Assembly (NCBI RefSeq): GCF_002886045.1 | Contig: NZ_CP025791.1 | Location: 1-64,000 of the forward strand | From: Flavivirga eckloniae | GTDB taxonomy: Bacteria; Bacteroidota; Bacteroidia; Flavobacteriales; Flavobacteriaceae | Length of the DNA stretch: 64,000 nt | Direction: 5' to 3' | Shown here: piece after piece, positions 10,327 through 34,500 of the stretch | Numbering within the stretch: position 1 is the stretch's first letter | Layout: each line of letters opens with the position of its first letter | Notes under the pieces: model-generated | The model's input: only the letters and a program-made list of their open reading frames with translations | Told to the model about the DNA's origin: nothing | The model's database searches: none | Program-made: the position numbers and the translations under genes

Positions 10327-12387
10327 TTGAAAAACACAATTCAAACCCCAGTAGCAGCTAAGAAAGCTAAAATACTTTCAATACATGACGATTCGCGTAT
10401 TGATAACTATTATTGGCTAAATGAAAGAGAGAACCCAGAGGTTATAGATTATTTAAATGCCGAAAACGATTATACCAAAGGCATCATGGCGCATACAGAA
10501 GCTTTTCAAAAAGAACTGTTTGAAGAAATGAAAGGGCGTATAAAGGAAGATGATACTACAGTACCCTACAAGCTTAATGGCTATTGGTACATTACGCGTT
10601 ATAAAAAAGGTGGTGATTATCCCATTTATATTCGTAAAAAAGGCAGTTTAGATGCCGAGGAAGAGGTTTTATTCGATTGTAACGATATGGCAAAAGAGCA
10701 TGCCTATTTTAATTTAGGAGGCATTGCTATAAGTCCCGACAACACATTGGCGGCTTTTTCTACAGATACTGTAAGTAGAAGGCAATATACCATCCAAATT
10801 AAAAATTTGATCACTGGTGAAGTCTATTCAGACAAGATTTTAAGTACTACAGGATCGGTTACGTGGGCAAACGACAATAAAACGCTGTTTTATTCTGTTA
10901 AAGACGAACTTACTTTACGTTCTCATAAAATTTTTAAGCATAAACTGCATACAGACGCAAAAGACGATATTGAAGTTTATTATGAAGCAGATGAAACCTT
11001 TAACACCTTTGTATATAAAACAAAGTCGAAAAAGTATATTATTATTGGGTCTTCGAGTACGCTAACTACAGAGTATAGAATTTTAAATGCCAATACACCA
11101 GATGGTGAATTTAAGGTGTTTCAAGACCGTGTTCGTAAGTTGGATTATAGTATTTCCCATTTTAAGGATCACTTCTATGTTATAGCCAATAGCGATGGGG
11201 CAACAAACTTTAAATTACTTAAAACAAAGGAAACAACCACCCAAAAAGAACATTGGCAAGAGGTTATTCCTCATAGAGATACTGTTTTATTGGAAGATAT
11301 CGAGATTTTTAAAGACTATTTGGTTGTTAATGAACGTGAAAACGGACTCAATAGCTTACGGATTATTAGTTGGGATGGAAAAGAAGATTATAAACTACCT
11401 ATTAATTCGGAAACTTATACGATGTATATAGGAAATAACCCTGACTTCGATAGTGAGACTTTACGTTATGGGTTTAATTCCTTGACCTCTCCAAGTGCAG
11501 TTATCGATTATAACTTCAAGACAAAACAAAAGGATATTAAGAAAGAGCAGGTCGTATTAGGCGGTAAATTTGATAAAAACAACTACGAATCTAAGCGAAT
11601 TTGGGCAACTGCTAGAGATGGTGTAAAATTGCCAATATCCTTAGTTTATAAAAAAGGTATTAAGCTAGATGGAACCAACCCCTTATTACAATATGCTTAT
11701 GGATCGTATGGTGCAACGGTCGATCCTTCGTTTTCGAGTATTCGCTTAAGTTTATTAGATAGGGGCTTTGTTTATGCCATATCCCATGTAAGAGGCGGCG
11801 AATATTTAGGAAGGCATTGGTATGAAAACGGAAAATTACTTACCAAACGAAATACATTTAGCGATTTTATCGATTGTTCAAAATATTTAATAGAACAGCA
11901 ATATACATCAGAAAAGCATTTATATGCTTACGGTGGTTCTGCTGGAGGTTTGTTAATGGGAGCTGTTATTAATATGAATCCAGAGCTATATAATGGTGTT
12001 TTAGCAGCCGTTCCTTTTGTAGATGTGGTTACAACCATGCTTGATGAAAGTATTCCGCTAACAACAGGAGAGTACGACGAATGGGGGAATCCGAACAATT
12101 TAGAATATTATAAATACATGAAATCGTATTCGCCCTACGATAATGTAGAAGCCAAAAGTTATCCCAATATGTTAGTTACAACGGGCTTGCATGATTCGCA
12201 AGTGCAATATTGGGAACCTGCAAAATGGGTGGCAAAACTTAGGGAGTTGAAAACAGACACTAATAAATTGTTATTACATATAGACATGAATTCTGGTCAT
12301 GGGGGCGCTTCCGGGCGTTTTGAAAGCTTGAAGGAAATTTCGTTAGAATACGCGTTTTTACTAGATTTAGAAGGAATTAATAGGTAA
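10327..12387 (+). CDS. Prolyl oligopeptidase family (S9A, oligopeptidase B-like)
   Basis: The 686-residue serine peptidase has an N-terminal seven-bladed propeller (about residues 70-400) and a C-terminal alpha/beta hydrolase. The nucleophile serine is in AYGGSAGGLLMGA. The catalytic Asp is expected in TGLHDSQVQYWEP and the His in MNSGHGGASGRFE. IDNYYWLNERENPEVIDYL is the usual N-terminus of oligopeptidase B. The start is a TTG at 10327, because no ATG precedes that conserved block in frame. There is no signal peptide, so a cytoplasmic role in cutting small peptides after basic residues is likely. A candidate -7 box (TATTTTTG, 10286-10293) lies upstream without a good -33 box. Confidence 0.9.
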   Translation: MKNTIQTPVAAKKAKILSIHDDSRIDNYYWLNERENPEVIDYLNAENDYTKGIMAHTEAFQKELFEEMKGRIKEDDTTVPYKLNGYWYITRYKKGGDYPIYIRKKGSLDAEEEVLFDCNDMAKEHAYFNLGGIAISPDNTLAAFSTDTVSRRQYTIQIKNLITGEVYSDKILSTTGSVTWANDNKTLFYSVKDELTLRSHKIFKHKLHTDAKDDIEVYYEADETFNTFVYKTKSKKYIIIGSSSTLTTEYRILNANTPDGEFKVFQDRVRKLDYSISHFKDHFYVIANSDGATNFKLLKTKETTTQKEHWQEVIPHRDTVLLEDIEIFKDYLVVNERENGLNSLRIISWDGKEDYKLPINSETYTMYIGNNPDFDSETLRYGFNSLTSPSAVIDYNFKTKQKDIKKEQVVLGGKFDKNNYESKRIWATARDGVKLPISLVYKKGIKLDGTNPLLQYAYGSYGATVDPSFSSIRLSLLDRGFVYAISHVRGGEYLGRHWYENGKLLTKRNTFSDFIDCSKYLIEQQYTSEKHLYAYGGSAGGLLMGAVINMNPELYNGVLAAVPFVDVVTTMLDESIPLTTGEYDEWGNPNNLEYYKYMKSYSPYDNVEAKSYPNMLVTTGLHDSQVQYWEPAKWVAKLRELKTDTNKLLLHIDMNSGHGGASGRFESLKEISLEYAFLLDLEGINR

Positions 12388-12468
12388 TATGAAAAATTGT
12401 TTTATTTTTGTCAGGTTTTAGGTTTTAAATATTTTTAGTAATATTACCTAAGCTTATAAAAAGCATTT

Positions 12469-13509
12469 ATGAAACACAGAAACCAGGTTTTTGACAATGT
12501 ATTAGATTTAATAGGTAATACACCACTTATTAAACTTAATAAAATAGCCGCCAAGTTTAAAGGGAACTTTTACGCAAAAGTAGAAGCCTTTAATCCAGGA
12601 CATTCTTCAAAAGACAGAATAGCACTTTACATTATAGAACAAGCAGAGAAAAAAGGAATTTTATCTCCAGGCGATACGATTATAGAAACGACTTCGGGTA
12701 ATACTGGATTTAGTATAGCTATGGTAAGTATTATAAAGGGATACGATTGTGTTCTAGCCGTGAGTTCTAAATCTTCGGCGGATAAAATAGACATGCTTAA
12801 AACCATGGGAGCTAAAGTTTATGTGTGCCCGGCACATGTAAGTGCAGACGATCCAAGATCGTATTATCAAGTGGCTAAGCGCTTGCACGAAGAGATAAAA
12901 GGTTCTGTGTACATTAACCAATATTTCAATGAGTTAAATGTTGATGCACACTACAATTCTACCGGTCCAGAAATTTGGAACCAAACAGATGGTAAAATAA
13001 CTCACTTAGTAGCATGTAGTGGAACCGGAGGAACGATTTCTGGTACGGCTAGATATTTAAAAGAGCAAAACCCTAACATTAAAGTAATAGGAGTAGATGC
13101 TTTTGGTTCTGTTATTAAAAAATACCACGAAACTAGAGAATTCGACGAAAAGGAAATTTATCCATATAGAATAGAAGGTTTAGGGAAAAACTTGATCCCA
13201 ACCGCTACAGATTTCGATGCTATTGACGAATTTGTAAAGGTAACCGATGAAGAAAGCGCTCATTCTGCTAGATTAATAGCTAAAACAGAAGGTTTGTTTG
13301 TTGGTTATACTTCTGGTGCAGTAATGCAAGCTATTAAACAACTAGGGGAGCAGGGAGAATTTAAAAAAGGAGATAATGTAGTTGTCATTTTTCCAGATCA
13401 CGGATCGAGGTATATGAGCAAAGTATATAGCGATAAATGGATGAACGAACAAGGCTTTTTTGATAGTAAAAATGAAGCTGCTGCGCAAAACATTCAGTAT
13501 ATAAAGTAA
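12469..13509 (+). CDS. capA: Cystathionine-synthase-like PLP enzyme, candidate cysteate synthase (CapA)
   Basis: At 346 residues this is a fold-type II PLP enzyme of the cysteine synthase/cystathionine beta-synthase group without a CBS pair. It has [14 protein letters not shown] at the N-terminus, the PLP-lysine in [23 protein letters not shown] for substrate, and [14 protein letters not shown] for phosphate. Known biology: in Capnocytophaga, CapA is a close relative of CBS that makes cysteate from phosphoserine and sulfite for sulfonolipids. The gene next door is a CapB-type acyltransferase, which favours that role here. Plain cysteine or cystathionine synthesis is the main alternative. It has its own strong terminator, so co-transcription with capB is not assured. 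Confidence 0.7.
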
Positions 13510-13528
13510 TATAAATCAAAACTTTGAG

Positions 13529-13572
13529 GAGATATTATTTTGTCATAAAGGCAAAATAATATCTCTTTTTTT
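13529..13572 (+). terminator. Rho-independent terminator after capA
   Basis: A 14-bp stem (GAGATATTATTTTG at 13529-13542 with CAAAATAATATCTC at 13552-13565) is followed by TTTTTTT. It lies 20 bases after the stop codon. The gap to capB (13573-13761) therefore needs its own promoter. TAATTTTG at 13624-13631 is a possible -7 box, without a well-placed -33 box. Confidence 0.85.
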
Positions 13573-13761
13573 ATTTTATCAATATTTGAGCGGTAAAAAT
13601 TATGCTCAAACGATATAAATATTTAATTTTGCAATAACTAACTAAGAACAAAAAGCTTCATGAAATATGCTTAAACATTATAATTTGTTTTTGTTATCCC
13701 TCAAAAGCAAATGCATCTGTGTGGTTATGTCTTAGTTTTAATAGCAATAAGATTATAATAA

Positions 13762-15021
13762 ATGAAAGATTTATTTGAGAAAATTTATAAGGACAAAGGG
13801 CCATTAGGAAAATGGGCTTCCCAAGCCGAAGGTTACTTTGTATTCCCTAAATTGGAAGGAGAAATTTCAAATCGCATGAAATTTCAAGGAAAAGATGTTA
13901 TTACTTGGAGTATTAATGATTATTTAGGATTAGCTAATCATCCTGAGGTAAGAAAAGTAGATGCAGAAGCAGCTGCTCAATATGGTTCTGCCTATCCGAT
14001 GGGAGCTAGAATGATGTCTGGACATACCGATTTACATGAAAAGTTGCAAGACGAATTAGCTTCTTTTGTAAGTAAAGAAGCAGCCTACCTATTAAATTTT
14101 GGATATCAAGGTATGGTGTCTACTATTGATGCACTCGTATCTAAAGACGATATTATAGTTTATGATGTAGATGCACACGCTTGCATTATTGATGGGGTTC
14201 GTTTGCACATGGGTAAACGTTTTACTTATAAACACAACGACGTTGAAAGTTTAGAAAAGAACTTAGATAGAGCTACTAAAATGGCAGAACAAACCGGAGG
14301 AGGGATTTTAGTAATCTCTGAAGGTGTTTTTGGAATGCGAGGTGAACAAGGACGGTTAAAGGAGATTGTAGCGCTTAAACAGAAATATAACTTTAGATTA
14401 TTTGTTGATGATGCTCATGGTTTTGGTACGTTGGGAGCAACAGGAGCTGGAGCAGGAGAGGAGCAAGGTGTACAGAACGATATTGATGTGTATTTTGCCA
14501 CATTTGCAAAATCGTTAGCAAGTACAGGAGCGTTTATAGCTGGAGATCAAGAAATAATTGATTATTTGAAATATAACTTACGTTCTCAAATGTTTGCAAA
14601 ATCATTGCAAATGCAATTGGTTGTTGGTGCTTTAAAGCGTTTAGAAATGCTTAGAACTATGCCAGAACTAAAGAATAAGCTTTGGGAAAATGTAAATGCG
14701 TTACAATCTGGATTAAAAGATCGCGGTTTCGACATAGGAACAACCCAAAGTTGTGTAACACCTGTGTATTTAAAAGGAAGTATTCCGGAAGCCATGGCCT
14801 TAGTTAGAGATTTACGTGAGAATTATGGCATATTCTGTTCTATAGTGGTTTATCCGGTAATTCCAAAAGGTTTGATTCTTTTAAGACTCATACCTACAGC
14901 TACACATACTTTAGAAGACGTTGCTGAAACTTTAGCTGCTTTTGAAGCTATACGTACTCGACTAAAAAATGGAACATACAAACGCTTATCTGCTTCGCTA
15001 ATGGAAGCGATGAGGGAGTAG
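13762..15021 (+). CDS. capB: Alpha-oxoamine synthase, candidate cysteate acyltransferase (CapB)/serine palmitoyltransferase
   Basis: This 419-residue PLP enzyme belongs to the KBL/SPT/AONS family, which condenses an amino acid with an acyl thioester. It has the cofactor-binding FVDDAHGFGTLGATG and the PLP-lysine in YFATFAKSLASTGAF. NDYLGLANHPEV and PMGARMMSGH are typical family blocks. Known biology: CapB joins cysteate to a branched acyl chain to give dehydrocapnine, while true serine palmitoyltransferase makes sphingoid bases. Sequence alone does not separate the two. The neighbouring CapA-like gene argues for cysteate. 2-Amino-3-ketobutyrate ligase is a less likely alternative, since no threonine dehydrogenase is adjacent. 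Confidence 0.8.
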   Translation: MKDLFEKIYKDKGPLGKWASQAEGYFVFPKLEGEISNRMKFQGKDVITWSINDYLGLANHPEVRKVDAEAAAQYGSAYPMGARMMSGHTDLHEKLQDELASFVSKEAAYLLNFGYQGMVSTIDALVSKDDIIVYDVDAHACIIDGVRLHMGKRFTYKHNDVESLEKNLDRATKMAEQTGGGILVISEGVFGMRGEQGRLKEIVALKQKYNFRLFVDDAHGFGTLGATGAGAGEEQGVQNDIDVYFATFAKSLASTGAFIAGDQEIIDYLKYNLRSQMFAKSLQMQLVVGALKRLEMLRTMPELKNKLWENVNALQSGLKDRGFDIGTTQSCVTPVYLKGSIPEAMALVRDLRENYGIFCSIVVYPVIPKGLILLRLIPTATHTLEDVAETLAAFEAIRTRLKNGTYKRLSASLMEAMRE

Positions 15022-15040
15022 TAGTGTTTTAAAATAATAA

Positions 15041-15171
15041 AAAAGAGCGTCTAAAAAGTGTCATTCAGAACAAAGTGAAGAATCTCAAAAAATAAACACG
15101 AGTTTATTAGAATGTTGAGATTTTTCGACTGCGCTCAAAATGACATTCAACACTTTTTAGACGCTCTCTTT
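15041..15171. terminator. Composite bidirectional terminator with a dispersed repeat in its loop
   Basis: Outer arms 15041-15060 (AAAAGAGCGTCTAAAAAGTG) and 15151-15171 are complementary over about 20 bp and sit between two convergent genes. The interior is itself an imperfect palindrome. TCATTCAGAACAAAGTGAAG (from 15061) pairs with the complement of the stretch ending in GACTGCGCTCAAAATGACA, with CTC...GAG nearer the middle. It matches the common Bacteroidota intergenic repeat that reads GTCATT...GAAGAATCTC. The arms share GTCTAAAAAGT with the hairpin at 5803-5893. Confidence 0.7.
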
Positions 15172-16293
15172 TTATGCAATATCCTTTTTAAAAGTACAGC
15201 GCCTTTTATTGACGACTGGATTGAAGTTTTTCCATATTTTTTGAATGGCAACGTTGTCATCTAGTTCTGGACCTCTTACGCACCATTCTATATTTTTTTC
15301 TTTAAATGTTTTATAAAACTCATCAAAAATAATAGCGGTTACACCTTTATTTTGATATTCTGGTAAAATACCTATTAAATAAAAAGTAACTGTTTTAGCA
15401 TGCTTCTTAGCGCGTAGTAAATGAATTATTCCAAAAGGGAATAGTTTACCCTTCATTTTCTGTAAAGCTTTAGCGTAAGATGGTGTAACAATACCAAAAC
15501 CGACTAGTTTGTCGTCTTTGTCCAAAACAAATTTTACATATTCCGGATTAAGGAATCCGATGAATTTTTTCTTGAAATATTCGCGTTGCTCATCATTTAT
15601 TTTAACAAAAGAAGACAGGACTTCGTGCGATTTAGAAAATACATCAAACATCTCGTCTGTATATGGGAGAATGTCTTTGTTTTTTGTAAAGCAAAGGGCT
15701 TTAAGCTGATAGCGCTTTTTTATAATGCCTTGCATTCTAACAAAAAAACTGGAATCCATATTCTGAAAATTCATGATGTTTTCAGAATACGATTTGGCAA
15801 CATCATAACCTAGTTCCCTTAAGTGATCTGCATAATATGAGTGGCTGTGCCAGGTAATCATGTTTCCTATTTGGTCAAACCCTTCAGTTAGTACACCCAC
15901 TTTGTCAAGATTAGAAAAACCAACCGGACCTTCAACGAAATCGAGGTTTTTTTCTTTGCCTATCTCTATAACCTTATCGAGTAAAGCTTTTGTAACATCA
16001 ATATCGTCAATAACATCAAACCAACCAAAGCGCATTTTTTTTACGGCTTGATCTTTTACTTCTATCCAATTAATGATAGCCGCTATACGGCCTACAATTT
16101 CATTGTTTTTATAAGCCAAAAACATTCTGGCTTCCGCATCATTGAATACCGGGTTTTCTGTTTTATCTAAAGTTTTAATTTCTTCACTTATAATTGGAGG
16201 AACCCAATATTTGGAATTTTTAAACAGCTTAAATGGAAATTTCACAAAAGCTTTAAGCTCTTTTTTTGTCTGTACTTCTTTAAGTATTATCAT
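15172..16293 (-). CDS. GNAT-superfamily acyltransferase, candidate lipid N-acyltransferase
   Basis: The 373-residue protein has an N-terminal half with YWVPPIISEEIKTLDKTENP and MFLAYKNNEIVGRIAAIIN, typical of YghO-like GNAT proteins. The C-terminal GNAT core holds VTFYLIGILPEYQNKGVTAIIFDEF, which contains the acyl-CoA loop. It converges on capB across the terminator at 15041-15171. The ceramide synthase of Caulobacter is also a GNAT-type protein encoded beside its serine palmitoyltransferase. By analogy this protein may N-acylate the capnine base, but that is inference. A generic acetyltransferase cannot be excluded. There is no signal peptide or membrane segment. Confidence 0.7.
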   Translation of the reverse strand: MIILKEVQTKKELKAFVKFPFKLFKNSKYWVPPIISEEIKTLDKTENPVFNDAEARMFLAYKNNEIVGRIAAIINWIEVKDQAVKKMRFGWFDVIDDIDVTKALLDKVIEIGKEKNLDFVEGPVGFSNLDKVGVLTEGFDQIGNMITWHSHSYYADHLRELGYDVAKSYSENIMNFQNMDSSFFVRMQGIIKKRYQLKALCFTKNKDILPYTDEMFDVFSKSHEVLSSFVKINDEQREYFKKKFIGFLNPEYVKFVLDKDDKLVGFGIVTPSYAKALQKMKGKLFPFGIIHLLRAKKHAKTVTFYLIGILPEYQNKGVTAIIFDEFYKTFKEKNIEWCVRGPELDDNVAIQKIWKNFNPVVNKRRCTFKKDIA

Positions 16294-16318
16294 AAGTAAT
16301 TATATAGATATCCGATTT

Positions 16319-17341
16319 TTAATTATCGTCAAAATCTATATCGTTTCGTTTTCGTTTTTTGGTTTTACCGGGTAGGTCGGTTTGGTTCTTTTTGTTTCGT
16401 CTCGATTTTCTTTTGCCTTCTTCTTTGGCAGAATTACCGTTGTCTATTTTTTCACGTTTTACTTCTTTATCTTTATGAAAATCCAATCTATAAGATACGC
16501 CAAGATTAGCTCCAAAAACAGAAGGTGTGTCCTTGGCATTAAACGTTATGGCTGTATCTAGTTGAAGATCTTTGTTTAATAAATAGGCACCTCCTAATCT
16601 AAAAAGATTATCGGCATAAACATCACTCTTAATACCTTGGGTTTCAGCAAATATAACCCATTGCGGATTGAAAGAATGTGTTAATGTTAGTATGTATTGA
16701 AAATCCGATTGATCGGTTCCAATCCTATCTTTTGAAAAATTCATTACAAAAACCCATCCTCCCGGGAAATTGTGCTGCGTGGCTACCATAATCTTCGGAC
16801 TAAATCCTTCTACGTCCGGTGCTAAGTAGGGATTGTCTTTTGTGTCGTAATGTGCCCCCAGATACACTGCCACAGCAGGAATTAACGAACGCCATTTAAA
16901 ACTGTGATTGGCTCTCCAGCTGTATAGGTCTGGTTTTCTGTTTTCTGGGTTTTTATAGGGATCGTAAACCAAATATTTGGCACCTAATGTTAGTGTTTTA
17001 AAGTTAGATCGTTTTTCTTCGGAAGAAAACCCAGAAGCGTATAGGGTTTTTGTATCGTTTTGATAGGTGCCTTCAATGTTTATTTCAAGCTGTTCTAATA
17101 ATAATCCATATCTAGCAGCGAAATCAACTCCGAAACCATTAGCATCGTAGGCAACAGCAGGAGTTCTTTTTTCTCTAGAAAGGTAGGGACCAACTTCAAA
17201 TTGAACAACGTTGGTGCCTACGGAAAAGGCGCTTCTGGACACCCCAGGTCTGTTTGAGTTTATAACATTGGTATATTGACCATATGCTTGAATTGAAATC
17301 AAGGTCAATAGCAAGCATAATGTAGGTTTAATCAAGTTCAT
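16319..17341 (-). CDS. Outer-membrane beta-barrel 'transporter' (MetA-like) with basic tail
   Basis: The 340-residue product has a signal peptide (MNLIKPTLCLLLTLISIQAYGQ). The barrel of alternating strands starts NVINSNRPGVSRSAFSVG, the start typical of the phenol-degradation MetA-type outer-membrane family. The barrel ends near LGVSYRLDF. About 65 residues follow that are very rich in Lys and Arg (KSRRNKKNQTDLPGKTKKRK) and end in the acidic DIDFDDN. Such a tail is unusual for a barrel and would lie in the periplasm. The substrate is unknown. It begins a minus-strand pair with the GNAT gene, 25 bases apart. Confidence 0.75.
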   Translation of the reverse strand: MNLIKPTLCLLLTLISIQAYGQYTNVINSNRPGVSRSAFSVGTNVVQFEVGPYLSREKRTPAVAYDANGFGVDFAARYGLLLEQLEINIEGTYQNDTKTLYASGFSSEEKRSNFKTLTLGAKYLVYDPYKNPENRKPDLYSWRANHSFKWRSLIPAVAVYLGAHYDTKDNPYLAPDVEGFSPKIMVATQHNFPGGWVFVMNFSKDRIGTDQSDFQYILTLTHSFNPQWVIFAETQGIKSDVYADNLFRLGGAYLLNKDLQLDTAITFNAKDTPSVFGANLGVSYRLDFHKDKEVKREKIDNGNSAKEEGKRKSRRNKKNQTDLPGKTKKRKRNDIDFDDN

Positions 17342-17500
17342 AATTAATGTTTATGTTTACAACTAGTAGCATTTTAGTAGTACTTAGTTATTGTTTTTAA
17401 GTCCTAAGACTTTTTCAAATATAGATATTTTATACATTTTTTATCATTTTTGAACGTTTTTTAAACATATAGAATTGTATTTTTGTTAAAAATATTTTTT

Positions 17501-23647: not shown

Positions 23648-25567
23648 TTATTCCATTTTAATCACAATAAATTGTGTACGTCTGTTTAATTGATGTTCTT
23701 CCTCTGTACAATTGGTATTGTCATCACAATCATTAATCAATTTTTGCTCACCATAACCTTTGTATTCAGTTATTCTGGCAGGATCTACACCTTTATCGAT
23801 TAGATACTTGTATGTAGCTTTAGCTCTACCTAGAGAGAGTCTGTCGTTGTATCTTGATGAACCTCTGGAATCGGTATGCGATTCTATTTTTATTACCATA
23901 TTCGGGTACGTGTTCATCATTAAATTAACTATTCTATCTAACTCGGCAGTACCATCGCTTCTAATATCGAACTTATTAAAGTCAAAATAAATAGGATAGA
24001 GCTCTGTAATTGGTAAAACTTTTTCAACTTGATTTAGGTGGAAGTTTTCTGTAATACTGGTAACCTTTTTTTCTACACCTTTAGAGGTTACATGTCTGGT
24101 ATCGTCTATATAGTCTTCTTTTTTAATGTTTAATATATAGTCTGTATCTCTATCGATGTTTATATCGTAATTTCCGTCTTCATCAGTTTTCAGGAGGGCT
24201 ATTTGTTTATTGTTGCCGTCTAGTAACGTAACTATAGCATTAGGTACTGGAGCATTTGTTTTAACATCTGTTATGGTACCTTCTATTTTTAATTGTGGCA
24301 CTCTGTCGTAAGCATAAATATCGTCACCACCAACACCTCCATTTCTATTAGATGCGAAATACCCGGATAATCCATCGTCGTTCATAAAGAATGAAAAATC
24401 GTCTTTACTAGAGTTTACTGGAACACCAAGATTTAAAACACTAATAATGTTATTGGTTTTGTCTGAAACGGTTCCAAAGATGTCTAGCAAACCTAATCCC
24501 GGATGCCCATCTGAAGCAAAGAAAAGGACACCTTCACTGTTAACAAAAGGGAATCTCTCATTTTTATCTGTGTTAACCACATTACCTAAGTTTTGTGGTT
24601 TGCCATAAGAGCCATTGCTATTTACATCTACATAATAAATATCTGTTCCGCCAAAACCATCTGGCATATTGGATGCAAAATATAATTTCGTTTCGTCGCT
24701 ATTCAAAGCCGGATGTCCGTTGGAATAATCATCGTTATTAAAAGGAAGTTCTTCAACATTAGTCCATTTGCCATCAATTAAGGATGCCTTATAGATTTTA
24801 AGGTTTGTCATGCCTTCTGCATCTTTCCCTAAAACATCTTTATTGTAATTGTTTCTAGAGAAATAAATGGTTTTACCATCCTTAGTTATGGTTATTGGTC
24901 CTTCGTGATACACGGAATTAATATCGCCTTTAAGTCTAGACTTATGATCTACAATACTGTCGTTAGCACTTTTATCGGTAACATAAATGTCTAAAAAGGG
25001 CTCTTCGTTCCAGCCATATATGTGTTTTTTAGTAACACCCTCGTTTCTTGATGAGGCAAAGTAAATTTTACCATCGTGCTCGTATGCTCCAAAATCACTA
25101 TACTTTGAATTGAAGTTAACATCTGTTAAAAAGTATTGTTGTTTTGCATTGAAAATGGAATTAATAAAATCGGGATCTTTTGAAAGCCTTTCTTCATTTA
25201 CTTCTCCTCCCGCTTTTTTAAAGCGTCTCATCCAAACACGAGATTCTTTATAGGCTTTTACACCCCTTAAGGCTTGTGCATAGTTGTAATAATATGCAAT
25301 AGGCACATTAGGTTGTTCTACCGCCTTTTTATAATATACAACAGCACTGTCTGGGTTTCGTAAAAACGCATAACTGTCTGCTAATTGCCTGGTGGCATAA
25401 TCGGCATTAAAATCTTTTTCTATAAGATTGTGATACACCTGAACAGCATTAACAAACGAAAATTTATTAAATAAGTTATCCGCTTTTTTTTGAGTGCCAT
25501 ATTGGGCTAGTGCCGAAAAGCTTAATAACAATATAATACTAGTTAATATATGATGTTTTGCTCTCAT
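23648..25567 (-). CDS. OmpA-family protein with TPR, PD40 propeller and regulatory domain (copy A)
   Basis: The 639-residue protein has a signal peptide ending SALAQ, then TPR-like helices (about 30-120). A PD40 propeller follows, with repeated YFAS/YFSR strands (IYFASSRNEG, LYFASNMPDG, GYFASNRNGG; about 150-400). Next come a carboxypeptidase-regulatory-like domain (about 405-490) and a C-terminal OmpA domain (YFDFNKFDIRSDG and IESHTDSRGSSRYNDRLS), which binds peptidoglycan. The layout matches PorE-like T9SS accessory proteins and the OmpA protein near sprF in Flavobacterium. It should tie the SprF/adhesin export complex to the cell wall. It is a close paralogue of the next gene, of identical length. 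Confidence 0.88.
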   Translation of the reverse strand: MRAKHHILTSIILLLSFSALAQYGTQKKADNLFNKFSFVNAVQVYHNLIEKDFNADYATRQLADSYAFLRNPDSAVVYYKKAVEQPNVPIAYYYNYAQALRGVKAYKESRVWMRRFKKAGGEVNEERLSKDPDFINSIFNAKQQYFLTDVNFNSKYSDFGAYEHDGKIYFASSRNEGVTKKHIYGWNEEPFLDIYVTDKSANDSIVDHKSRLKGDINSVYHEGPITITKDGKTIYFSRNNYNKDVLGKDAEGMTNLKIYKASLIDGKWTNVEELPFNNDDYSNGHPALNSDETKLYFASNMPDGFGGTDIYYVDVNSNGSYGKPQNLGNVVNTDKNERFPFVNSEGVLFFASDGHPGLGLLDIFGTVSDKTNNIISVLNLGVPVNSSKDDFSFFMNDDGLSGYFASNRNGGVGGDDIYAYDRVPQLKIEGTITDVKTNAPVPNAIVTLLDGNNKQIALLKTDEDGNYDINIDRDTDYILNIKKEDYIDDTRHVTSKGVEKKVTSITENFHLNQVEKVLPITELYPIYFDFNKFDIRSDGTAELDRIVNLMMNTYPNMVIKIESHTDSRGSSRYNDRLSLGRAKATYKYLIDKGVDPARITEYKGYGEQKLINDCDDNTNCTEEEHQLNRRTQFIVIKME

Positions 25568-25653: not shown

Positions 25654-27573
25654 TTATTCCATTTTCACAACTATAAATTGAGTACGTCTGTTTAATTGAT
25701 GTTGTTCCTCTTCACAGTCTTCACCATCTTCACATCCATTAGTTAACCTACGTTCTCCAAAACCTTGATGTTCTGTAATTCTTTCCGGTTTTATACCTTT
25801 GGAAATTAAGTAATCGTATGTTGAATTTGCTCTATCTATAGATAATCTATCATTGTATGTTAAGTCTCCTCTGGAATCGGTATGCGACTCTATTCTAATA
25901 ATCATATCTGGATAGTCGTTTTGCATTAGGCTAACAATTTTATCCAGCTCTAAAGCAGCATCTTTTCTAATATCGTATTTGTTGAAATCGAAATAAATCG
26001 TGTTCAACTCAGCAAGTTTTATAACATTAGGTACCGGGTTCAATAGTAAATTGGCATTAATGGTAATGAGCTCGGTTTGAATGTTTTTTGAGGTAAAATG
26101 TCTGTAGTCGTCAATGTATTTGTCCTGACTCGCCACAATTTTATAATCTTCGTTTCTGTCGATATTTATTTGATAGTAACCGTTTTCATCTGTTTCCATA
26201 TAGGCAATTTGGTTGCCGTTTTTGTCGAACAAAGTAATTATGGCATGTGCTACAGGATTCATATTAATGGCATCTGTTACAACACCTTCTACATGTAATA
26301 CAGGTTTTCTGTGGTATGCGTAAATATCGTCGTCGCCACGTCCTCCTTTTCTGTTAGATGCAAAATACCCTGTTATACCATTTTCATTCATGGTAAACGA
26401 GAAATCATCTTTATTGGAGTTAACAGGAATTCCTAAGTTTATAACGTCGGCAATGCCACCGTCTTCTCCTTTAATGGTTCCAAAGATATCGTACAGTCCT
26501 AAACCAGGATGTCCGTCTGAAGAGAAGAATAAAACACCTTCATTGTTAATAAAGGGAAATCCTTCCGAGCTTTCTGTATTTACAATATTTCCAACATTTT
26601 GAGGTTCTCCTAAGGAGCCATCAGGATTGATGTCTACCTCATAAATATCTGAACCACCATATCCGCCAGGCCTATCTGATGCAAAGTATAATTTGGTTTC
26701 ATCAACGTTTAAGGCGGCATGCTGTGTAGAAAAATCATCACTGTTTATGGATAAGTCTTCAATATTTGTCCATACGCTGTCCTGAAGGGTTGCTCTGTAT
26801 ATTTTCATGTTAGTTAACCCTTTTCTATCTTTTCTTTCACCAGCTTCCTTGGTAAAGTTATTGCTGGAAAAGTACATGGTATGCCCATTTTTTGTAATGG
26901 TTACCGGACCATCGTGATATATAGAGTTTACATCTCCTTTTATTTTTGCTGAATGATTTACATTTCTTCTGGTACCTACATCGGCTACATAAATATCCAG
27001 GAAAGGTTGTTCGTTCCAACCGTACAAACGTTTTATGGCAACACCTTCGTCTCTGGATGAAGCAAAATAGACTTTACCATTATGTTCGAAAGCTCCAAAG
27101 TCGCTGTATTTTGAATTGAATCGGATTTTATCTAAAAAGTATTGTTGTTTAGCACCAAAAACACTGGTGATAAAGTTGGCGTCTTTAGAAAAGTCGTTTG
27201 ATTTTACAACACCTCCAGAATCTTTGTAACGCTGCAACCAAACTTGCGAGTCTTCATATTTTTTCATGCCTCGAAGCGATTGTGCGTATTTATAGTAATA
27301 CTCTATAGGTACGTTTTTTTGCTTAACTACATTTTTATAAAATCTAGAGGCGTTTCTCGGGTCTCTTAAATAAGCATAACAGTCTGCTAACTGTCGTGTA
27401 GCATAATCTCTGTTGTAGTTATTTTGAATAAGCTCTCTGTAAACTTTAGCTGCTTTTACGAAAGAGAATTTATTGAATAATGTATCGGCTCTTTTTTGTT
27501 TTCCTTGTTGAGAAAAGGCTGAAAAGCTTAACATTAAAGCGATACAGACTAATATGTAGTTTTTATTTTTCAT
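25654..27573 (-). CDS. OmpA-family protein with TPR, PD40 propeller and regulatory domain (copy B)
   Basis: Same domain order and the same 639-residue length as copy A: signal peptide ending FSAFSQ, TPR helices, PD40 strands (VYFASSRDEG, LYFASDRPGG, GYFASNRKGG), a regulatory beta domain (LHVEGVVTDAINMNPVAHA) and OmpA (YFDFNKYDIRKDAALELD, IESHTDSRGDLTYNDRLS). Clearly a tandem duplicate. It lies 11 bases from sprF and 86 from copy A, so all are probably on one mRNA. Two diverged copies may form a hetero-complex or serve different cargo. Confidence 0.88.
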   Translation of the reverse strand: MKNKNYILVCIALMLSFSAFSQQGKQKRADTLFNKFSFVKAAKVYRELIQNNYNRDYATRQLADCYAYLRDPRNASRFYKNVVKQKNVPIEYYYKYAQSLRGMKKYEDSQVWLQRYKDSGGVVKSNDFSKDANFITSVFGAKQQYFLDKIRFNSKYSDFGAFEHNGKVYFASSRDEGVAIKRLYGWNEQPFLDIYVADVGTRRNVNHSAKIKGDVNSIYHDGPVTITKNGHTMYFSSNNFTKEAGERKDRKGLTNMKIYRATLQDSVWTNIEDLSINSDDFSTQHAALNVDETKLYFASDRPGGYGGSDIYEVDINPDGSLGEPQNVGNIVNTESSEGFPFINNEGVLFFSSDGHPGLGLYDIFGTIKGEDGGIADVINLGIPVNSNKDDFSFTMNENGITGYFASNRKGGRGDDDIYAYHRKPVLHVEGVVTDAINMNPVAHAIITLFDKNGNQIAYMETDENGYYQINIDRNEDYKIVASQDKYIDDYRHFTSKNIQTELITINANLLLNPVPNVIKLAELNTIYFDFNKYDIRKDAALELDKIVSLMQNDYPDMIIRIESHTDSRGDLTYNDRLSIDRANSTYDYLISKGIKPERITEHQGFGERRLTNGCEDGEDCEEEQHQLNRRTQFIVVKME

Positions 27574-27584
27574 ATAAAATCCAA

Positions 27585-28511
27585 TTAGAAATATCTTGGT
27601 GATTTTAACTTAGAACTTAAGAACTTAAATTCGTATATAAGCAATATCTCATGCGTTCCAGTAGTATATCTGGCTATGTCTGAAATAGGCTTTTCGTAAG
27701 CATATCCTAAACGTAGTTGTCTTGAAACTTGAAAGTCTACAATACCACCTATGGCAGCGGCTTGCTCATTTATTCTATAGGATCCGCCTAACCAAAACTT
27801 TTCCCTGTATAAGAAATTAGCTGTAAGATCGAAAGATAGGGGAGCACCATTGGTCGCTTTTATTAAACCAGCAGGCTTAAATTTAAACGAGTTACTAATA
27901 TCGAATACACCTCCTAATGTAAAGTAGTAGCTAATACGCTCTAAGGCTTTATAGTCTCCGTTTTTGTTTTCGTCTGTGCTAAGTATTCTTGGCGCAGATA
28001 ATCCGGCATAGAATCTATTTGTATGATAGTAAACACCAGCACCGATGTTAGGCGCCCAGCGGTTTTCTGTGCCACTAAAAAATGGATCTTGACTTACAGT
28101 TGGATCGTTAATGAAATCCTGATCGAAACTATAGAGTGTAGCACCACCTTTTGCTCCAAATGCAAACTTCCCTGTTCTTCCCACTGGAATACTATATGAG
28201 AAATCTGCATATAGGTACGAATAGTTTTGTGGTCCCAGATCGTCTTCAATAAAAGATAACCCTAAGCCTATTCTATCGTTTCTTAGTGGTGTGTGTATTG
28301 AAAGTGTTTGGGTAATAGGTCCACCTTTAAAACCAACCCATTGGCTTCTGTGCAATCCAACAATGCTTAATGCTTCTCTACTTCCTGCATAAGCTGGATT
28401 TATTGAGATTGTATTGTACATATACTGGGTGAATTGCGGTAATTGTTGTGCAATTCCAACCGTACAGCTTAACAATGCAATAGCTATTATGTTATGTTTT
28501 ATAAGTCTCAT
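27585..28511 (-). CDS. sprF: PorP/SprF-family T9SS outer-membrane protein
   Basis: The 308-residue protein has a signal peptide (ends TVGIAQ) followed at once by LPQFTQYMYNTISINPAYAG, the signature of the PorP/SprF family. The rest is a barrel (strands such as GLGLSFIEDDLGPQNYSYLYADF). In Flavobacterium johnsoniae SprF is needed to export the adhesin SprB encoded just upstream. The gene here is 10 bases after a large type-B-CTD adhesin gene, so it should serve that cargo. The symbol marks the family and context, not proven orthology. Confidence 0.88.
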   Translation of the reverse strand: MRLIKHNIIAIALLSCTVGIAQQLPQFTQYMYNTISINPAYAGSREALSIVGLHRSQWVGFKGGPITQTLSIHTPLRNDRIGLGLSFIEDDLGPQNYSYLYADFSYSIPVGRTGKFAFGAKGGATLYSFDQDFINDPTVSQDPFFSGTENRWAPNIGAGVYYHTNRFYAGLSAPRILSTDENKNGDYKALERISYYFTLGGVFDISNSFKFKPAGLIKATNGAPLSFDLTANFLYREKFWLGGSYRINEQAAAIGGIVDFQVSRQLRLGYAYEKPISDIARYTTGTHEILLIYEFKFLSSKLKSPRYF

Positions 28512-28521
28512 AGGTTATGTT

Positions 28522-31500
28522 TTATTTGGTTCCTAAGTAAACAGGTCCTGTAATAGGATTCAAGCCACTATTCAGTAATTTTATTATATAGTAATATGTT
28601 CCGTTAGGGACTTTTCCGGCAGATCCTATAGATCCGTTACCGGTAGTTCCATTCCAATCGTTTTGATAGTTACCGGATTCGTACACTAAAGCACCCCATC
28701 TGTTAAAGATTTGAACTTCATACTGGAATCCGCATAATTCAATTCCGGAAATTTCGAAATATTCATTATATGCATCACCATTCGGAGTTACAGCTTTCGA
28801 TACGACTACATCATTTTCACCACAAGGTAATACCACACAATCGGCATGTACATTCATGGTAATTTCTGTAACACTAATACAACCTTGATCGGTAGTTGTG
28901 TATTTGAATTCATAATCTATTCCACCACTTTCTGGTAAGAAATCCAAGCTTAATTCAAGTCCGCTAGGATCGAATACGTTACCGTTTAGTATTGCGGCAG
29001 TATCGCCTTCTAACATTTCCCAAGTACCATTTTTATTAAGGTCTGCAGGTAATAAATCATTCATGTTTATAGCACCTTCGTCATAACACCAGTCTGGTGC
29101 AACTATTTCGGTAACTACTTCGTCTAGCGCTACATTAAGTGTTTGCGTATATATTGCTTCATTGTTGCATTCGTCTCTAACCGTCCACGTTCTAACAATT
29201 TCGTAATCTACAAAAGCATTTTCGTCAAATGAGTTTGTTTCGTTAAATACTACGATAATATTTGTTGAACAATTATCGGTAAAGCTTAATTCTGGTGCAT
29301 CTGGTATATCTGTACAACTTACATCTAATGTTTCATCAAAAGTAGATGTAGGCACAGGTGCCGTTGTATCCTGTACAGTAATAATTTGTGTGTGTGTTGT
29401 TGTTAAACCACATTCGTCTGTAGCCGTCCAGGTACGTGCTATGAAATAATTATTAGGACAGTCTCCATCTGTTCTTGAATCTTGGACTGTAACTGTAGCA
29501 TCGCCACAATTGTCTGTAGCTGTTAATGTTTCTGCCGTTGGTATGGCATCACATTCTACAGTTATAGCATCACTTGGAAGTGGTGTATCAAAAACTGGAG
29601 GTACTGTATCTTCAACGTTTATTATTTGCGTGTGTGTTGTTGTTAAGCCACATTCGTCTGTAGCTGTCCAAGTACGTGCAATTCTGTATGTGTTAGGACA
29701 ACTACCATTTGTTCTTACATCGTTTACTGTAACTGTAGCGTCGCCACAGCTATCTGTAGCTGTTAATGTTTCTGCAACAGGAACAGCGTCACATTGTACA
29801 GTTTGAACCAATTCAGGTAGTGTACCTTCAAATTCTGGAGGCGTTATGTCTTGAACTGTTATTGTTTGAATATGGGTATTGGTTAAACCACAATCGTCTG
29901 TTGCAACCCATGTACGGGTAATGGTATAGTTGTTTGGACAGTTGCCATTTGTTCTCGCTTCGGTAAATTCAACGGTAGCATTCCCACAATTATCTGTAGC
30001 TGTTAATGTTACAGCTGCTGGCACTGTACTACATTCAACTGTTATGTCTTGCGGTAGTTGTTCAACAAAATCTGGAGCTATACTATCTGATGTTGAAATT
30101 TCTTGTTGCGCAGAGGCTACATTTCCACAAGCATCTGTTGCTGTCCAGGTTCTAACGATTTTAAACGTACCAGAACATGCGCCATCTTCTCTAACATCTA
30201 CAAACGTTATGATAGGGTTAGGGTCGCAGTTATCTGTTGCTGTAGCATTACCAAATGCTAATGGTGTTAAATCATCACTACATTCTGCTGTTTGATTAGC
30301 AGGTAAGGTTAATACAGGTGGAGTAACGTCATCAATAATAATGTTTTGAGTGACGTTGGTTATATTGCCACACTCATCTGTAATACTATATGTTCTAGTA
30401 ATGGTTTCTGCACAGGTATTGTTATCTGATACTTCAGAAACAAAAACAACGCTAAGATTGTCAGCAATCGTACAATTATCTGTTTCTCCAATAACCACAT
30501 TAATATCTGGAGCTGGTACATCGTCTAAACATTCTACCGTAATATCAGCCGGATTAGACACTGTAGGAGGTGTCGTATCGTTTACGTTTATAGTCTGAGT
30601 CGCCGTAACGGAGTTGTTACATGCGTCGGTGATCGTATATGTTCTTGTCACGACAATCGGGCATGTCCCCGCAGCACTGTCGGAGTTTGTAACGGTAAGG
30701 TCAGCATCTGCGGTACAGTTGTCCCCGATAACAAGACCAAGCGCTTCAAGGGCGGCCACATCTGTTGCCGGAGCCGTAGCATCTGCAGAGGTACATCCCT
30801 CTACCGTAGACTCTGGAATAGAGCCGGTAGCTGTTGGATCCTGATCGTCGTTAACGATTATGTTCTGGGTCACAAATATCTGGTTGTCACAGATATCCGT
30901 AACGCTGTATGTTCTAGTAATGGTCTCGGGACACGTATTGCCGTCCGATGCGTCCGATACGAATGCCACAGCGGGCGTTCCCTGGTTGTCAGCCTCGTCG
31001 GTCACCACGTCCACGTTGGGAGCAGGCACGTCGTCGATACACTGTACGTTTATGTCCGCAGGGTTAGAAGCGGTAGGCATTATAGGGTCCGTAATAAGTA
31101 TGGTCTGTGTCACTGTGATCGAGTTGCCGCACTGGTCTGTCACGCTATAAGTCCTTGTAATGGTCTCAGGACAGTTCCCGTTGTCGGATACGTCCGATAC
31201 ATGTGCCACCGTAGGCGGTACCGTGCAATTGTCCGCTTCGTCGATAACCACTGTTACATCCGGAGCCGGAACCGGTCCACCTGGTACTGATATCGTATCC
31301 GGGTTTGATGCCGTAGGGTCCGTCGTATCGTTTACGTTTATGGTCTGTGTTGCGGTAACGGAGTTGTTACACGCATCTGTGATGGTGTATGTTCTTGTTA
31401 CGACAATCGGGCAAGTACCCGCAGCACTGTCGGAGTTTGTAACGGTAAGGTCAGCATCTGCGGTACAGTTGTCACCGATAACAAGTCCGAGCGCCTCAAG

Positions 31501-34500
31501 GGCGGCCACGTCCGTTGCAGGCGCGGTAGCATCTGCAGCGGTACATCCCTCTACCGTAGACTCTGGAATAGAGCCGGTAGCTGTTGGATCCTGATCGTCG
31601 TTCACGATTATGTTCTGGGTCACAAATATCTGGTTGTCACAGATATCCGTAACGCTGTATGTTCTTGTAATGGTCTCTGGACAGGTATTACCATCCGATG
31701 CGTCCGATACGAATGCCACAGCGGGCGTTCCCTGGTTGTCAGCCTCGTCGGTCACCACGTCCACGTTGGGAGCAGGCACGTCGTCGATGCACTGTACGTT
31801 TATGTCCGCAGGGTTAGAAGCCGTAGGCATTATAGGGTCGGTAATAAGTATGGTCTGTGTCACTGTGATCGAGTTGCCGCACTGGTCCGTCACACTATAG
31901 GTCCTTGTAATGGTCTCGGGACAGTTTCCGTTGTCGGATACGTCGGATACATGTGCCACCGTAGGCGGTACCGTGCAATTGTCCGCTTCGTCAATAACTA
32001 CTGTTACATCTGGAGCAGGGACCGGTCCACCTGGTACGGATATCGTATCCGGGTTTGAGGCCGTAGGGTCCGTCGTATCGTTAACGTTTATGGTCTGTGT
32101 CGCGGTAACGGAGTTGTTACACGCGTCGGTGATGGTATATGTTCTTGTTACGACAATCGGGCATGTCCCCGCAGCACTGTCCGAGTTTGTAACGGTAAGG
32201 TCAGCATCGGCTGTACAGTTGTCACCGATAACAAGTCCGAGCGCCTCAAGGGCGGCCACGTCTGTTGCAGGTGCGGTAGCATCTGCAGCGGTACATCCCT
32301 CTACCGTAGACTCTGGAATAGAGCCGGTAGCTGTTGGATCCTGATCGTCGTTCACGATTATGTTCTGGGTCACAAATATCTGGTTGTCACAGATATCCGT
32401 AACGCTGTATGTTCTTGTAATGGTCTCTGGACAGGTATTACCATCCGATGCGTCCGATACGAATGCCACAGCGGGCGTTCCCTGGTTGTCAGCCTCGTCG
32501 GTCACCACGTCCACGTTGGGAGCAGGCACGTCGTCGATACACTGTACGTTTATGTCCGCAGGGTTAGAAGCGGTAGGCATTATAGGGTCCGTAATAAGTA
32601 TGGTCTGTGTCACTGTGATCGAGTTACCGCACTGGTCCGTCACACTATAAGTCCTTGTAATGGTCTCAGGACAGTTCCCGTTGTCGGATACGTCCGATAC
32701 ATGTGCCACCGTAGGCGGTACCGTGCAATTGTCCGCTTCGTCGATAACCACTGTTACATCTGGAGCAGGGACCGGTCCACCTGGTACGGATATCGTATCC
32801 GGGTTTGAGGCCGTAGGGTCCGTCGTATCGTTTACGTTTATGGTCTGTGTCGCGGTAACGGAGTTGTTACACGCGTCTGTGATGGTATATGTTCTTGTTA
32901 CGACAATCGGGCATGTCCCCGCAGCACTGTCCGAGTTTGTAACGGTAAGGTCAGCATCGGCTGTACAGTTGTCGCCGATAACAAGTCCGAGCGCCTCAAG
33001 GGCGGCCACGTCCGTTGCAGGTGCGGTAGCATCCGCAGCGGTACATCCCTCTACCGTAGACTCTGGAATAGAGCCGGTAGCTGTTGGATCCTGATCGTCG
33101 TTCACGATTATGTTCTGGGTCACAAATATCTGGTTGTCACAGATATCCGTAACGCTGTATGTTCTTGTAATGGTCTCTGGACAGGTATTACCATCCGATG
33201 CGTCCGATACGAATGCCACAGCGGGCGTTCCCTGGTTGTCAGCCTCGTCGGTCACCACGTCCACGTTGGGAGCAGGCACGTCGTCGATACACTGTACGTT
33301 TATGTCCGCAGGGTTAGAAGCGGTAGGCATTATAGGGTCCGTAATAAGTATGGTCTGTGTCACTGTGATCGAGTTGCCGCACTGGTCCGTCACACTATAG
33401 GTCCTTGTAATGGTCTCGGGACAGTTCCCGTTGTCGGATACGTCGGATACATGTGCCACCGTAGGCGGTACCGTGCAATTGTCCGCTTCGTCGATAACCA
33501 CTGTTACATCTGGAGCCGGAACCGGTCCACCTGGTACGGTTATCGTATCCGGGTTTGATGCCGTAGGGTCTGTCGTATCGTTTACGTTTATGATCTGTGT
33601 TGCGGTAACGGAGTTGTTACACGCGTCGGTGATGGTATATGTTCTTGTCACGACAATCGGGCATGTCCCCGCAGCACTGTCCGAGTTTGTAACGGTAAGG
33701 TCAGCATCGGCGGTACAGTTGTCGCCGATAACAAGTCCGAGCGCCTCAAGGGCGGCCACGTCCGTTGCAGGCGCGGTAGCATCCGCAGCGGTACATCCCT
33801 CTATCGTGGATTCTGGAATAGAGCCAGTAGCTGTAGGGTTTTGTGTGTCGTCAATATTAATAGTTTGCGTAGCTGTAGTTTCGTTATCACACTCATCTGT
33901 AATGGTATAAGTTCTAGTTACTATAACTGGACATGTGCCGGTAGCACTATCAGAACTGGTTACCACAAGGTTAGCATCATCTGTACAATTATCGCCAATA
34001 GTAAGCCCTAAAGCTTCCAAAGCTGCTACTGTGCTAACAGGTGCTGTAGCGTCTGCCGCTGTACATCCTTCTATAGTAGATTCAGCTATATTTCCAGAAA
34101 CAACAGGTGCTTCAGTATCGTCTACATTTATAGTTTGAGTTGCTGTAACAAAGTTGTCGCAAGCATCTGTAATGGTGTAAGTTCTAGTCACGATAATTGG
34201 GCAAGTTCCAGTTGCACTATCAGAACTTGTTACTACAAGGTCTGCATCAGCGGTACAATTGTCACCAATAGTAAGACCGAGAGCTTCTAAAGCAGCCACA
34301 GTATTAACTGGAGCTGTAGCATCGGTAGCCGTACAACCTTCTACTGTAGTTTCAGTAATTGAACCTGTAGCAGTTGGTACCTCGTCATCGTTAACTGTAA
34401 TGGTTTGTGTAACATTTATGGAGTTACCACAATCGTCTGTTACGCTATATGTTCTTGTTATAACTTCCGGGCAAGTATTTCCATCGGATGCATCAGATAC

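Follow-up and report, generated by a model that had tools for sequence, protein, structure and literature searches.

N-acyl-capnines are lipids of the outer membrane which the literature, in the portions available, links with gliding and with the responses of hosts and choanoflagellates. The available text of three papers credits steps 1-3 of sulfonolipid synthesis to CapA, CapB and CapC or KCR (PMC10191378, PMC12927429, PMC11211663), with the kcr genes lying apart from cfat and Cys (PMC11211663). For the N-acylation step, the accessible sections of PMC11211663 name no gene, and none is assigned in the partial texts surveyed, a body of literature that mostly excludes subscription papers and hence gives no proof of absence. 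Here we describe a locus in the first 64,000 nucleotides of contig NZ_CP025791.1 of Flavivirga eckloniae (the window), in which genes for a predicted cysteate synthase (CapA) and a predicted cysteate fatty acyltransferase (CapB) lie beside a convergent gene for a tandem-GNAT protein. By its homology and genomic context, we propose with a probability of roughly 0.6 that this protein (hereafter GNAT) is the N-acyltransferase for capnine or 3-ketocapnine.

An enzyme of comparable kind is known from ceramide synthesis. CC_1154, or bCerS, is described as a ceramide N-acyltransferase in the extracts available of PMC11324152 and PMC11087976, which disagree as to whether it works before reduction, and the accessible part of PMC9386255 groups YghO with CC_1154 as an acyl-CoA N-acyltransferase of dihydroceramide synthesis.

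The assignments of CapA and CapB are supported by comparisons with profiles, structures and single residues. CapA scores 654.8 bits with the NCBIfam model NF053679 (CysteaSynCapA), above the equivalog cut-off of 600, and falls under the own cut-offs of 24 other models listed among the 37 matched, including those for cystathionine beta-synthase (CBS) and cysteine synthases. Its best PDB match is 9k2p (E 5e-153; the best CBS reaches E 3e-81), and the second-best NF053679 homologue in the window genome, a single contig of 5.67 Mb, scores 465.2 bits. Among 198 Bacteroidota genomes (the phylum sample) the cut-off is passed in 19, every one in the window's family; in two genomes of the window's order the CapA homologue adjoining CapB stays below it (546 and 548 bits).

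The closest PDB structure to CapB is 28eh, named cysteate-C-fatty acyltransferase (E 3.2e-215), followed by SulA, 7u7h (E 4.6e-171), with the best serine palmitoyltransferase (SPT) at E 4.2e-73. The available text of PMC9304779, where the PDB code identifies 7u7h as SulA of Alistipes finegoldii, proposes as a distinguishing mark Lys281, which replaces an alanine of SPT. CapB carries the SulA-type lysine as K280 and the pyridoxal phosphate (PLP) lysine as K250; in an alignment whose rows include near-duplicates, the K280 position is Lys in 22/22 CapB rows (the window plus 21) and Ala in 37/37 SPT or SPT-like rows. The PLP-site residues of SulA (N53, H140, D217, H220, T248, K251 and R376) are all found in CapB, their numbers one lower. 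With the SPT model NF047600, CapB reaches 299.8 bits, short of the cut-off of 640. In the phylum sample 74 genomes have CapB, as do 325 of 337 Flavobacteriaceae, presence here and below being called by E-value thresholds (1e-90 for CapB, 1e-60 for GNAT and 1e-110 for SPT). CapA and CapB thus add one more instance of a pathway already described. An ordinary cysteine or cystathionine synthase beside an SPT or a glycine C-acetyltransferase would belong to the same superfamilies, but such a pair is very improbable given Lys280 and scores that put CapA above its own cut-off and below those of the other models, and CapB at less than half the SPT cut-off. The first-pass annotation, which had placed three genes here, all with intact reading frames, and had read the CBS-type enzyme as CapA-like and the alpha-oxoamine synthase as CapB-like, is borne out by the NF053679 score, the 28eh and SulA matches and K280; the grouping of the CBS-like enzyme with cysteine synthases, which it had named as fatal to its claim, did not occur.

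What marks this locus is the third gene. GNAT is homologous to YghO of E. coli BL21 (pairwise, 26% identity over 328 aa at E 3e-31) over most of its length, the alignment reaching the C-terminus when several sequences are aligned together. A fold search returned generic tandem GNATs and N-myristoyltransferases, which is compatible with the proposed role but shows no function, and a PDB sequence search gave nothing useful. The family is widespread (a match at 1e-5 in 189 of the 198 genomes). The SPT cut-off is passed in five of the 198, and in all five the genes for SPT, GNAT and a CerR-like epimerase are consecutive, their ends mostly touching or overlapping (loci L119, L161, L162, L168 and L187). 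None of the 19 genomes of the window's family in the phylum sample, the window genome among them, gave an NF047600 match at 1e-110, and for this reason GNAT is not filed as a ceramide synthase. A ceramide synthase homologue in a genome that gave no SPT match is what leads us to place GNAT at the N-acylation step.

The phylogeny of the family is consistent with such an activity. A quick tree, built without bootstrap, drew on 179 unique GNATs, left from 234 matches once a length filter had been applied and duplicates taken out; 122 of them were included (12 of 50 from named loci, 19 of 37 SPT-like, 14 of 15 CapB-adjacent, and all others). One clade of 72 rows (SH-like approximate likelihood ratio test, SH-aLRT, 100) holds the window protein together with the other window-type GNATs of Flavobacteriaceae, and into this clade falls, at SH-aLRT 100, the protein encoded in the SPT operon of genome G033; on the opposite side of the tree lie YghO, a clade of distant paralogues and the rest of the SPT-linked GNATs. 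Since SPT-linked GNATs stand on both sides, the tree favours long-chain-base N-acylation as the general activity of the family.

Several other features of the family were observed. An SPT-like gene below the NCBIfam cut-off stands beside GNAT, often with a CerR-like epimerase, at L132-L135, L137-L145, L166, L167 and L173, and regions with an SPT-like gene and GNAT also occur in loci of family f22 (for example L148, L149 and L152), 25 genomes of which have both an SPT-like match and CapB; such regions are possible sphingolipid loci. The GNATs of two f22 genomes (L050 and L051; G151 and G081) nest in the tree with those of Flavobacteriaceae, a placement suggestive of transfer. The window genome itself carries a second, distant GNAT paralogue on the minus strand at G000:C1:454106-455227 (see also L117:8062-9228).

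Within Flavobacteriaceae, GNAT and CapB tend to be present and absent together. The 337 genomes divide into 307 with both, 18 with CapB only, 2 with GNAT only and 10 with neither (Fisher p 1.7e-10, a value that counts genomes rather than events, of which there are few, and ignores relatedness), so that GNAT is absent from 10 of the 12 genomes lacking CapB as against 18 of the 325 that have it. Eight Flavobacteriaceae were called GNAT-negative by difference, and a profile search gave no match in any of the eight; at 1e-8, that search found no member of the GNAT family in any of the ten double negatives. A Fisher test by genus (5/5 versus 11/198 genera) does not escape the effect of common descent, and we base no claim on it. 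The joint absence is not the loss of a whole chromosomal block, since YfhO, encoded near GNAT, is retained in nine of the ten double negatives (and in 37 of 38 genomes tested). In a tree of this one gene, with 71 chosen rows, nine double negatives fall within a clade of 14 rows whose three members with both CapB and GNAT (G029, G088 and G107) have the two genes unlinked, and one shared deletion is therefore an unlikely cause of the co-loss.

Gene order was examined in the phylum sample and in 80 named loci, chosen by closeness to one Psychroflexus CapB, among which the nearest relative of the window is Flavivirga aquimarina (CapB 97%, GNAT 85%). CapA precedes CapB by no more than 510 bp in 79 of the 80, and of the 18 sampled genomes of the window's family with both CapB and GNAT, 13 have them as convergent neighbors; from these two counts the grouping of the genes is beyond chance. 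Seven of the 13 convergent pairs lie within 160 bp, and six are about 700-800 bp apart around one small open reading frame (ORF); the CapB-GNAT pair is kept even in the seven of the 13 where CapA is not beside CapB. In the named loci, GNAT is within 500 bp of CapB in 43, farther away in 9 and not seen in 28, four of which have less than 5 kb of downstream sequence. The small ORF (155-207 aa) is found in six genomes of genus g2 (L212:10120-10671 and equivalents in L213-L217), and the one that was tested had no Pfam or NCBIfam match.

Linkage by itself nevertheless proves little, and we dropped it as sole proof of the role of GNAT because the most constant neighbors of this gene belong to the YfhO block. 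GNAT accompanies a MetA_deg-DUF4834-YfhO-glycosyltransferase block in 17/17 regions even when CapB is elsewhere, with the MetA_deg gene adjoining it in all 17 and lying within 500 bp of it in 48 of 52 named loci. In five of the 18 family genomes (G021, G029, G084, G088 and G107) GNAT is not linked to CapB. Together with GNATs at E<=1e-60 in 14 of the 124 CapB-less genomes, all from other families, these observations weigh against our proposal, and would fit a GNAT that acylates some other amine, for example on a lipid or glycan processed by the YfhO and glycosyltransferase block, its adjacency to CapB reflecting two blocks that happen to meet; CapA and CapB would remain as stated. We consider this explanation unlikely, though it is the most serious competitor, as the block survives the loss of GNAT: beyond the retention of YfhO, the order CapA-CapB-MetA_deg-YfhO is intact minus GNAT in 9 of 13 GNAT-less CapB regions, and in the named loci L268, L269, L286 and L302. 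The co-absence of GNAT with CapB also speaks against it, as do the characterised homologues, which use long-chain bases in the portions of the literature available. The MetA_deg gene remains in 9 of the 13 GNAT-less CapB regions, and is found in 5 of 9 regions from genomes with neither CapB nor GNAT. In favor of our proposal, GNAT lies 1.2-2.9 kb from CapB at L324, L332 and L335, with MetA_deg far away or not seen; at L345 the contig ends.

Further evidence against our proposal concerns genomes in which CapB and GNAT do not coincide. Among the 18 CapB-bearing Flavobacteriaceae without GNAT, 17 have no profile match to the YghO/CerS family at 1e-8, the other (G295) having the distant paralogue; apart from three isolated cases, the YfhO tree places such CapB-only genomes in a single 19-row group that includes Gramella, Mesonia, Salegentibacter, Gillisia and Psychroflexus. 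GNAT is thus missing from the CapAB-bearing Gramella/Salegentibacter group, and was lost three to four times on this tree while CapB was kept. The nine double negatives require only two to three losses. (One GNAT-less CapAB genome, G053, was considered as Capnocytophaga and rejected as such; it is Psychroflexus curvus, and so does not bear on the idea that Capnocytophaga contains mainly free capnine.) GNAT without CapB occurs in G487 and G514, which are fragmented (91 and 95% complete). Outside Flavobacteriaceae the two genes are weakly associated: in the phylum sample GNAT is present in 29 of the 74 CapB-bearing genomes, 20 of them in the window's order (this figure and the 14 of 124 are hand counts from match rows), and of the 27 CapB-bearing genomes in the class's other orders 15 hold only the distant paralogue (13 by tree, 2 by score) and three have no GNAT or a fragment-like match, so that any N-acylation there needs the paralogue or another enzyme. 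Finally, no residue marking the sulfonate head group was established in GNAT; the one motif considered, a C-terminal KRRR, was rejected as the SPT-operon GNAT of G033 carries it too. From the 15 paralogue-only genomes and the 17 CapB-bearing Flavobacteriaceae without any family match, it might be supposed that the distant paralogue or an unrelated acyltransferase does most of the work in the window genome as well, the window GNAT being redundant or minor. This we regard as improbable, since 16 of the 18 family genomes that carry GNAT in the phylum sample have the window-type protein as their sole match at 1e-5 and the paralogue lies far from CapB in the window genome.

We therefore retain GNAT as the leading single-gene candidate to emerge here for N-acylation in Flavobacteriaceae. 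The first-pass suggestion that it is the missing N-acyltransferase gains from its YghO/CerS homology, the SPT-GNAT-CerR operons elsewhere and the co-loss with CapB, and loses from the unlinked genomes, the CapAB genomes without GNAT and the related GNATs of other families in genomes that lack CapB. The locus would then serve sulfonolipid synthesis in a Flavivirga-type bacterium of this family: CapA would make cysteate from phosphoserine and sulfite, CapB would act as cysteate fatty acyltransferase, a reductase encoded elsewhere would lead to capnine, and GNAT would add a second fatty acyl chain to the amine, either on capnine or as early as 3-ketocapnine, in the way proposed for CerS in Caulobacter. 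The product would be N-acyl-capnine for the outer membrane.

A broader and more tentative idea, which we would sooner doubt than accept, is that GNAT is the missing fourth sulfonolipid enzyme, one family serving both ceramide and sulfonolipid synthesis, and that Gramella, Salegentibacter, Mesonia, Gillisia and Psychroflexus, which kept CapAB and lost GNAT, carry free capnine or a replacement acyltransferase. Among the literature matches listed, in the text available, nothing relevant concerned capnine or sulfonolipid in Gramella, Salegentibacter, Mesonia or Psychroflexus (the one paper using 'sulfonolipid' has it as an abbreviation in a caption, next to text about other phyla, and in a reference). 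In favor of our main proposal, GNAT is present, though unlinked, in Leeuwenhoekiella polynyae, and for a congener the accessible text of PMC9859067 reports sulfobacin A, tentatively, by mass. The locus thus offers a single candidate gene for N-acylation, together with relatives that naturally lack it.

The features of the locus, and of a second cluster in the window, are collected below. A hairpin scan of 12380-17500 found six terminator-like hairpins versus 3.2 expected, which says nothing on function; because one of them separates capA and capB, these may not form one simple transcript. The MetA_deg gene and GNAT are possibly co-transcribed.

Table. Features of the predicted sulfonolipid locus and of a type IX secretion-type cluster, in window positions
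Feature	Position	Strand	Details
capA, predicted cysteate synthase	12469..13509	+	346 aa; complete ORF; Pfam PALP, PALP/CBS-type enzyme
Terminator-like hairpin between capA and capB	13526..13568	+	19 pairs; pattern scan
capB/sulA/cfat, predicted cysteate fatty acyltransferase	13762..15021	+	419 aa; complete ORF; Pfam Aminotran_1_2, alpha-oxoamine synthase
Tandem-GNAT protein, YghO/CerS family, candidate N-acyltransferase	15172..16293	-	373 aa; complete ORF; PF00583 9e-7
PF13557 (Phenol_MetA_deg) protein	16319..17341	-	340 aa; 25 bp upstream of GNAT, same strand
2,619-aa protein	28522-36381	-	14 matched HYR_4C stretches; CHU_C type IX secretion signal
Cluster downstream of the 2,619-aa protein: PorP/SprF, two OmpA-family proteins	27585-28511, 25654-27573, 23648-25567	all -	

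The second cluster had been described as a SprB-like operon; it encodes a secretion signal, PorP/SprF and OmpA-family proteins, but a Pfam scan of the 2,619-aa protein found no SprB repeat.

Compared with known systems, CapA and CapB of the window belong to the same enzyme families as CapA-CapB of Capnocytophaga ochracea, Cys-CFAT of Chryseobacterium gleum, SulA of Alistipes finegoldii and Fjoh_2419 of Flavobacterium johnsoniae, a likeness drawn from profiles, structural relatives and the SulA lysine. Unlike those systems, the window locus has a CerS-family GNAT convergent beside CapB, and a terminator-like hairpin splits capA and capB. With CerS (CC_1154/CCNA_01212) and YghO, GNAT shares a tandem GNAT fold, homology to YghO over most of its length, and a family that in other Bacteroidota adjoins SPT and a CerR-like gene; it differs in falling in another clade, at about 26% identity to YghO, with which the comparison was made, and in coming from a genome that yielded no SPT match. 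By published description rather than by sequence, GNAT can also be likened to GlsB and the OlsF-type enzymes of glycine and ornithine lipids, which, according to the available text of PMC10191378 and PMC12927429, N-acylate an amine with a fatty chain.

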